Assembly (NCBI GenBank): GCA_024645245.1
Contig: JAHEBN010000015.1
Span: forward strand, 1-41,077
DNA from: Jiulongibacter sp.
GTDB lineage: Bacteria; Bacteroidota; Bacteroidia; Cytophagales; Spirosomataceae
Reading direction: 5' to 3'
Length of the DNA stretch: 41,077 nucleotides
Position 1 is the stretch's first letter, and the number at the start of each line of letters is the position of its first letter. Under the pieces are notes generated by a model that was given only the letters and a program-made list of their open reading frames with translations, made no database searches and was not told where the DNA came from. The position numbers and the translations under genes were made by a program. Shown here one piece after another: positions 20,633 through 20,820 of this stretch.

Positions 20633-20820
20633 TATCCAGTGGCCTTACGCCCGGATTGATTTATAAAGACGAGGGGAGAGAATAGGCTCAACGAACCCCG
20701 GGCAACCTACAGAATATCATTCGTAAGGTGCCAATACCTACCCACTATGCCGCCAAAAGGCTTTTGGGACTTATAAACCAATCAAAATAATCTGATTAAA
20801 GGTTGGTTTGTTATCCGAAA
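20633..20820 (+). ncRNA. SAM-I (S-box) riboswitch leader of metY-metX
   Basis: The order of elements matches S-box aptamers. A P1 5' strand at 20655-20669 (GATTGATTTATAAAG) pairs with 20770-20783 (CTTATAAACCAATC) over about 13 bp with one mismatch and one bulge. P2 is GGGG/CCCC around AGAGAATAGGCTCAACGA, which lines up with the kink-turn and pseudoknot region, then GGGCAACC and AAGGTGCCAATACC, the core signatures, and a P4 hairpin near 20750-20768. The 3' strand of P1 can instead pair with 20801-20809 (AAACCAATC with GGTTGGTTT), giving a competing hairpin. The switch should lower MetY/MetX synthesis when SAM is high. A small hairpin (about 20633-20656) precedes the aptamer. Confidence 0.88.

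Follow-up and report, generated by a model that had tools for sequence, protein, structure and literature searches.

A SAM-I riboswitch before metY-metX in Jiulongibacter with a lineage-specific output platform, and start codons placed directly behind the same aptamer in related leaders

The leader of the metY-metX genes in a 41,077-nucleotide stretch of Jiulongibacter sp. DNA (contig JAHEBN010000015.1, analysed whole and called here the window) contains a SAM-I riboswitch. Its kind is known, its output platform is lineage-specific, and the last step of the output is putative. In this platform, two helices, P1 and anti-P1, compete for one strand. That the exchange between them turns metY-metX off when SAM is plentiful, and is read at the translation of metY, is in our judgement an even call. 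Bacteroidota mostly do not use Shine-Dalgarno (SD) pairing, and therefore the textbook translational riboswitch, which hides the SD sequence, is unavailable to them. The arrangement found in relatives of the window leader is a more interesting result than the window's own switch, and it turns the question of how a riboswitch is read without an SD sequence into specific experiments. The features of the window leader and of the genes behind it are as follows.

20619 to 20626, plus strand: putative -7 promoter box, TATATTTG (TAnnTTTG type), assigned from the sequence; start site near 20633
20654 to 20666, plus strand: 5' strand of the extended P1, GATTGATTTATAA; pairs with 20771-20783; covariation in relatives
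20658 to 20779, plus strand: SAM-I (S box) aptamer; RF00162 match over model positions 1-108
20771 to 20783, plus strand: 3' strand of the extended P1, TTATAAACCAATC, common to anti-P1; includes the A20659-C20778 mismatch
20801 to 20811, plus strand: anti-P1 strand, GGTTGGTTTGT; pairs with 20773-20783
20814 to 20826, plus strand: hairpin 2 (UCCGA AAA UCGGA); stem 20814-20818/20822-20826
20828 to 20848, plus strand: hairpin 3, weak and AU-rich; stem 20828-20836/20840-20848
20865 to 20870, plus strand: CAAACC, at -15 to -10 of metY; in the model the anti-P1 strand may pair here instead, though not above shuffles
20880 to 22163, plus strand: metY, O-acetylhomoserine sulfhydrylase family (Cys_Met_Meta_PP; PF01053, E 3.6e-129)
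22212 to 23234, plus strand: alpha/beta hydrolase (PF00561, E 1.6e-17) that we take, from family knowledge and gene order, to be a metX-type homoserine O-acetyltransferase

The segment 20658-20779 is a genuine SAM-I aptamer. A whole-window search with the Rfam covariance model RF00162, the check proposed when a SAM-I riboswitch was first read from the letters ahead of metY-metX, matches it on the plus strand with 65.2 bits (E 4e-13), well over the gathering threshold of 44.4 bits; a search of the leader by itself gives E 3.6e-15. The match spans the full model, the core segments GGGCAACC and GGTGCCAATACC are in place, and the P1-P4 four-way junction aligns to the RF00162 consensus. An assembly-wide search finds this single copy, whose 3' end lies 100 nt before metY, with metX next, and which thus stands in the leader of a gene for methionine, SAM or sulfur metabolism. 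With a full-length aptamer, metY-metX downstream and a promoter box upstream, the leader is plausible as a complete riboswitch unit; by analogy with its class, the aptamer would bind SAM and the switch would be of the OFF polarity.

The product of metY shares 79-88% identity with its counterparts in Jiulongibacter, Lacihabitans and others, and the gene starts at ATG 20880. A 4-nt SD core is present at only 2 of the 30 ORF starts in the window, and metY has none. The metY frame is open upstream as far as TTG 20808 (20808-20879 in the window), but this extension is probably untranslated, because relatives do not share the open frame. (At the other end of the pair, the 3' end of metX overlaps that of a convergent hydrolase ORF on the minus strand, 23212-23877, by 23 bases, 23212-23234.) Proteins 80-85% identical to the window's MetY are also encoded on contigs labelled Verrucomicrobiota/Opitutae (L089, L090, L091, L093, L097, L102, L105, L106, L120), in whose searched leaders no SAM-I aptamer is detectable; these would reflect either gene transfer or mis-binned MAG contigs.

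SAM-I matches occur in 212 of 222 genomes of the window's family, which we take to be Spirosomataceae and which includes Jiulongibacter, Lacihabitans, Emticicia, Runella, Dyadobacter and Spirosoma. We sorted 153 distinct leaders, which are not phylogenetically independent, by their P1 3' end into three classes of our own definition: class A, the window type, with a TTATAAACC-like end (n=31); class B, with a UAUAAA-like end followed by a start codon (n=81); and class H, with an AGATAAG-like end, mostly before metH (n=41). Within class A, 18 of the 31 leaders have a TAnnTTTG-type box no more than 75 nt ahead of the aptamer, against 2.6 expected; the sigma-A box of F. psychrophilum has been reported to be TAnnTTTG (PMC9723704).

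The mutually exclusive helices of the window leader are real. The extended P1 has 13 positions, comprising 12 standard pairs and the one A20659-C20778 mismatch, and the sequence-only reading had placed it about right (20655-20669 with 20770-20783). It had also recognised the competing hairpin (20775-20783 with 20801-20809), which in the predicted fold is longer, reaching 20773 and 20811, and it had seen that the two structures exclude each other, as is borne out by the common strand 20773-20783. The platform of 115 nt folds with a z of -3.2 relative to dinucleotide shuffles, none of 200 of which folds as well.

Conservation of the helices was assessed in 23 distinct sequences of the window type that lie upstream of metY or metX. 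In P1, four cells are changed on both sides, a count and a covariation score that none of 500 shuffles reaches, and 88% of cells are paired, compared with 27-49% in slid registers. The expectation that relatives would covary thus held for P1; in anti-P1, it is the pairing that is conserved (83.6% of cells paired, compared with 23-53% in slid registers), with no covariation above shuffles. Because its sequence hardly varies, anti-P1 gives no real test of covariation. The P1 A·C mismatch is kept in 23/23 relatives, as is the facing of both C's of the common strand by GG in anti-P1; the mismatch would weaken P1 just where anti-P1 gains G-C pairs, which gives the pair of helices the look of a tuned switch. 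A GGTT[TA] motif follows the aptamer at 17-29 nt in every leader with a TTATAAACC-type P1 end, and at 47-58 nt in related leaders with ATATAAACC.

No U run lies close behind any hairpin of the window leader, and the sole match to a terminator-like consensus, hairpin 3, is within the shuffle background. Strong hairpin-plus-U sites (<= -12 kcal/mol) are found in 0 of the 31 class A leaders (1-4% of shuffles have one), which extends to the whole type the early remark that no obvious U-tract terminator is present; 18 of 35 SAM-I leaders from other Bacteroidota families have such a site. Given this contrast, the phylum uses canonical S-box terminators and the window lineage does not, and a strong intrinsic terminator in the window leader is rejected. 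Canonical antiterminator/terminator platforms are common in the other families (L278 and L269; for example CCTCTT...AAGAGG-TTTTTT). The window leader resembles the Bacillus-type S box with its terminating platform (RF00162) in its aptamer, its target genes and its use of a P1 strand common to an alternative helix, but no U-tailed terminator uses its anti-P1 strand as a 5' arm, and the competing helix has no strong terminator behind it.

Those terminators of other families are one reason to ask if the P1/anti-P1 exchange governs premature transcription termination instead, either at weak U-rich sites around hairpins 2 and 3 or through Rho. Weak hairpin-plus-U sites (<= -7 kcal/mol) are indeed present in 61% of class A leaders, compared with 16% of shuffles, and a hairpin is followed by U8 in L195 and by U6 in L208. 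However, besides the lack of strong sites, the weak ones fall at hairpins that differ between leaders, and neither hairpin 2 nor hairpin 3 has a base in common with P1 or anti-P1; we regard premature termination as unlikely, though deserving of some weight. Downstream of anti-P1 the order is hairpin 2, hairpin 3, a U-rich stretch, CAAACC, an A-run and ATG, and both hairpins come out identical whether the P1 3' strand is modelled as free or held. L202, a leader from the genus Jiulongibacter, keeps P1 and anti-P1 and has neither hairpin. Unchanged between the modelled states and missing in L202, neither hairpin 2 nor hairpin 3 is likely to be the switch; they are spacers or unrelated to the exchange. 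Rejecting either as the switched element also leaves unsupported a suggestion in the sequence-only reading, that translation is controlled through a small hairpin near 20829-20852, hairpin 3 here.

Two further readings fare worse. The anti-P1 hairpin and its trailing U's could themselves form a terminator, so that SAM would turn the genes on, and the sequence after the anti-P1 stem is U-rich in L186, L198 and L202; yet the hairpin has no more than two G-C pairs, its loops measure 17-30 nt, it reaches about -7 kcal/mol, its tail in the window is GUUAUCC, and metY and metX are biosynthetic genes of the sort that known SAM-I switches turn off, all of which makes this the least probable reading of those considered. 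Only slightly less improbable is that the window leader gates a degenerate or non-AUG upstream ORF (uORF), for instance UUG CUU UGU GCU ... UAA from 20839. It would then be like its sisters, which open an AUG 4-12 nt past P1 and whose uORF ends in Cys codons, and small AUG-x-UGU frames do occur near hairpin 3 in L169, L193 and L199. These frames vary by leader, however, with several leaders having none, and have no statistical support, and the window contains no AUG between P1 and metY. With neither an AUG nor a conserved frame, a hidden Cys uORF in the window is rejected.

A readout at metY translation is favoured, with moderate confidence, by elimination and because riboswitches outside Firmicutes are known to prefer translation, attenuation at that step being reported as their commonest mechanism (Barrick and Breaker 2007, PMC2258182). 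In the mechanism proposed, high SAM would turn metY-metX off by stabilising the aptamer together with the extended P1; without SAM, the anti-P1 strand 20801-20811 would capture the P1 3' strand. The SAM-bound state would free the U/G-rich anti-P1 strand with no intrinsic terminator being formed, and the freed strand would most likely lower metY initiation by base-pairing to the A-rich stretch ahead of the AUG or by crowding it.

Modelling of the two states offers a candidate for such a pairing. In ViennaRNA models, which take no account of SAM, Mg2+ or co-transcriptional order, the mean unpaired probability of 20865-20870 falls from 0.61 with P1 open to 0.15 with P1 held, where it is paired with the freed anti-P1 strand. 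This segment covers the zone that in F. johnsoniae contains the A-rich initiation determinants at -12/-13 (PMC6847099). However, 63% of control starts, taken from the window and the collected loci, pair with the anti-P1 strand as well as the window's start region does; against shuffles of its own sequence the pairing gives p 0.18, and the loss of start accessibility in the window gives p 0.37. Pairing of the freed strand with CAAACC, a copy of the P1 strand, is thus not above controls and is kept as a possibility only. It is in some other lineages that pairing with the start region exceeds chance: in the L085/L192 clade the partner includes the AUG and is exact over the start codon (AAAACCAAUG; p about 0.02-0.03), and L202 and L205 are above chance in the accessibility test. 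In most leaders, the mean accessibility of -20 to +10 is hardly altered between the modelled states.

Sister leaders present a different arrangement. In class B, an ATG lies 4-12 nt past P1 in 70 of the 81 leaders (mode 8-10), compared with 6.4 per 9-nt interval further on. The uORFs that it opens have a median of 36 codons, and 44 of 66 carry at least two Cys codons among their last ten, a count that is 2.7 in shuffles and 11 and 1 in the two remaining frames; the window has no such short uORF with clustered Cys codons. Typical peptide ends are CMCCCC, CCMRC, MCCCCCCC and RCCMP, and a pooled pS of 0.38 and pN of 0.20 among close pairs are consistent with selection on the leader peptide. Class B lies ahead of metY in 57 of 81 cases, 55 of them with the uORF, and the set comprises Spirosoma, Dyadobacter, Telluribacter, Adhaeribacter, Cesiribacter, Mucilaginibacter and Pedobacter. 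UAUAAA-type leaders with an ATG are also found in a phylum-wide sample (L239, L245, L249, L287, L288, L295). In a third type of leader, the start codon past P1 is that of metX itself, at 8 nt (L194) or 9 nt (L023), and in L006 the UUG start of metX overlaps the end of P1.

The P1 3' strand of class B leaders spans about -18 to -10 relative to the uORF start codon. At these starts A is most frequent at -14 to -12 and at -6, near the Kozak-like positions in F. johnsoniae. Most simply, P1 with SAM bound would mask this A-rich stretch, as an SD-less counterpart of SD sequestration; the output of the sister leaders is likely to be the start codon directly past P1. Their peptides suggest a composite control by SAM and cysteine, in which the Cys codons of the uORF would sense cysteinyl-tRNA. 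Pairing of these codons with sequence further on, as in a classical attenuator, mostly does no better than shuffles (p<0.05 in 6 of 44; median p 0.37).

It is rather probable, in our estimation, that much of Bacteroidota reads SAM-I with neither an SD sequence nor a terminator. The P1 3' strand would itself be the A-rich initiation region (-18 to -10) of an AUG 4-12 nt further on, which opens either metX or a leader peptide ending in Cys and Met; the latter would make metY a two-input gene, with SAM acting via P1 and cysteinyl-tRNA via stalling, and the window lineage would have swapped in the anti-P1 platform. The sister leaders thereby offer a concrete, testable SD-less readout, in which a nearby AUG has its A-rich start region covered by P1, and the window lineage is set apart as one that has kept the aptamer and swapped the output device. 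The Cys-rich uORF would tie the sensing of SAM to the supply of cysteine within a single leader.

Some known systems are alike in part. SAM-IXcc of Xanthomonas campestris (PMC7270179) also has a SAM-I aptamer before met genes and translational control, the latter inferred for the window; its second signal is uncharged initiator tRNA, where that of the sister leaders is possibly cysteinyl-tRNA, and it uses SD/anti-SD sequestration, whereas metY of the window lacks an SD sequence and no tRNA binding is proposed there. The uORFC-8-2 before cysS (PMC8632094) resembles the sister uORFs in having Cys codons near its 3' end, but a terminator covers those codons and there is no riboswitch, whereas the sister leaders have the SAM-I aptamer just before the uORF start and a downstream pairing of the Cys codons that is mostly not above chance; the window has no such uORF. 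In S. meliloti metA (PMC9373788), a SAM riboswitch likewise adjoins an initial AUG, and the true start of the gene lies beyond it, but the aptamer is SAM-II, the system is SD-dependent, AUG1 is in frame with metA, and there is no Cys-rich peptide. No published description of a SAM-I/uORF composite was found in a literature coverage that is incomplete, most subscription papers lying outside it. The leader peptides belong to no family in NCBIfam or Pfam, and 15 leaders contain no Rfam element besides the aptamer.

Several other observations concern the related leaders. In many Cytophagales and Sphingobacteriales (L131-L158, L104, L110, L122, L011, L046 and others), metY is preceded by short uORFs that lie right behind the SAM-I P1, about 10 nt past the aptamer, and have Cys/Met-rich ends. 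Upstream of the aptamer, right behind the promoter box, many class B leaders (L046, L048, L052, L058, L061, L067 and others) share a conserved ATCAAGTCAATT segment that has no counterpart in the window. In six leaders of one genus (L304-L309), the SAM-I match ends within tandem repeats of the CAGTAAA and CTGATAA types; because the real P1 3' strand (GGAAATATAAACCAATTACG) lies downstream of them, the sequences indicate that the repeats have expanded the variable hairpin that precedes P1.
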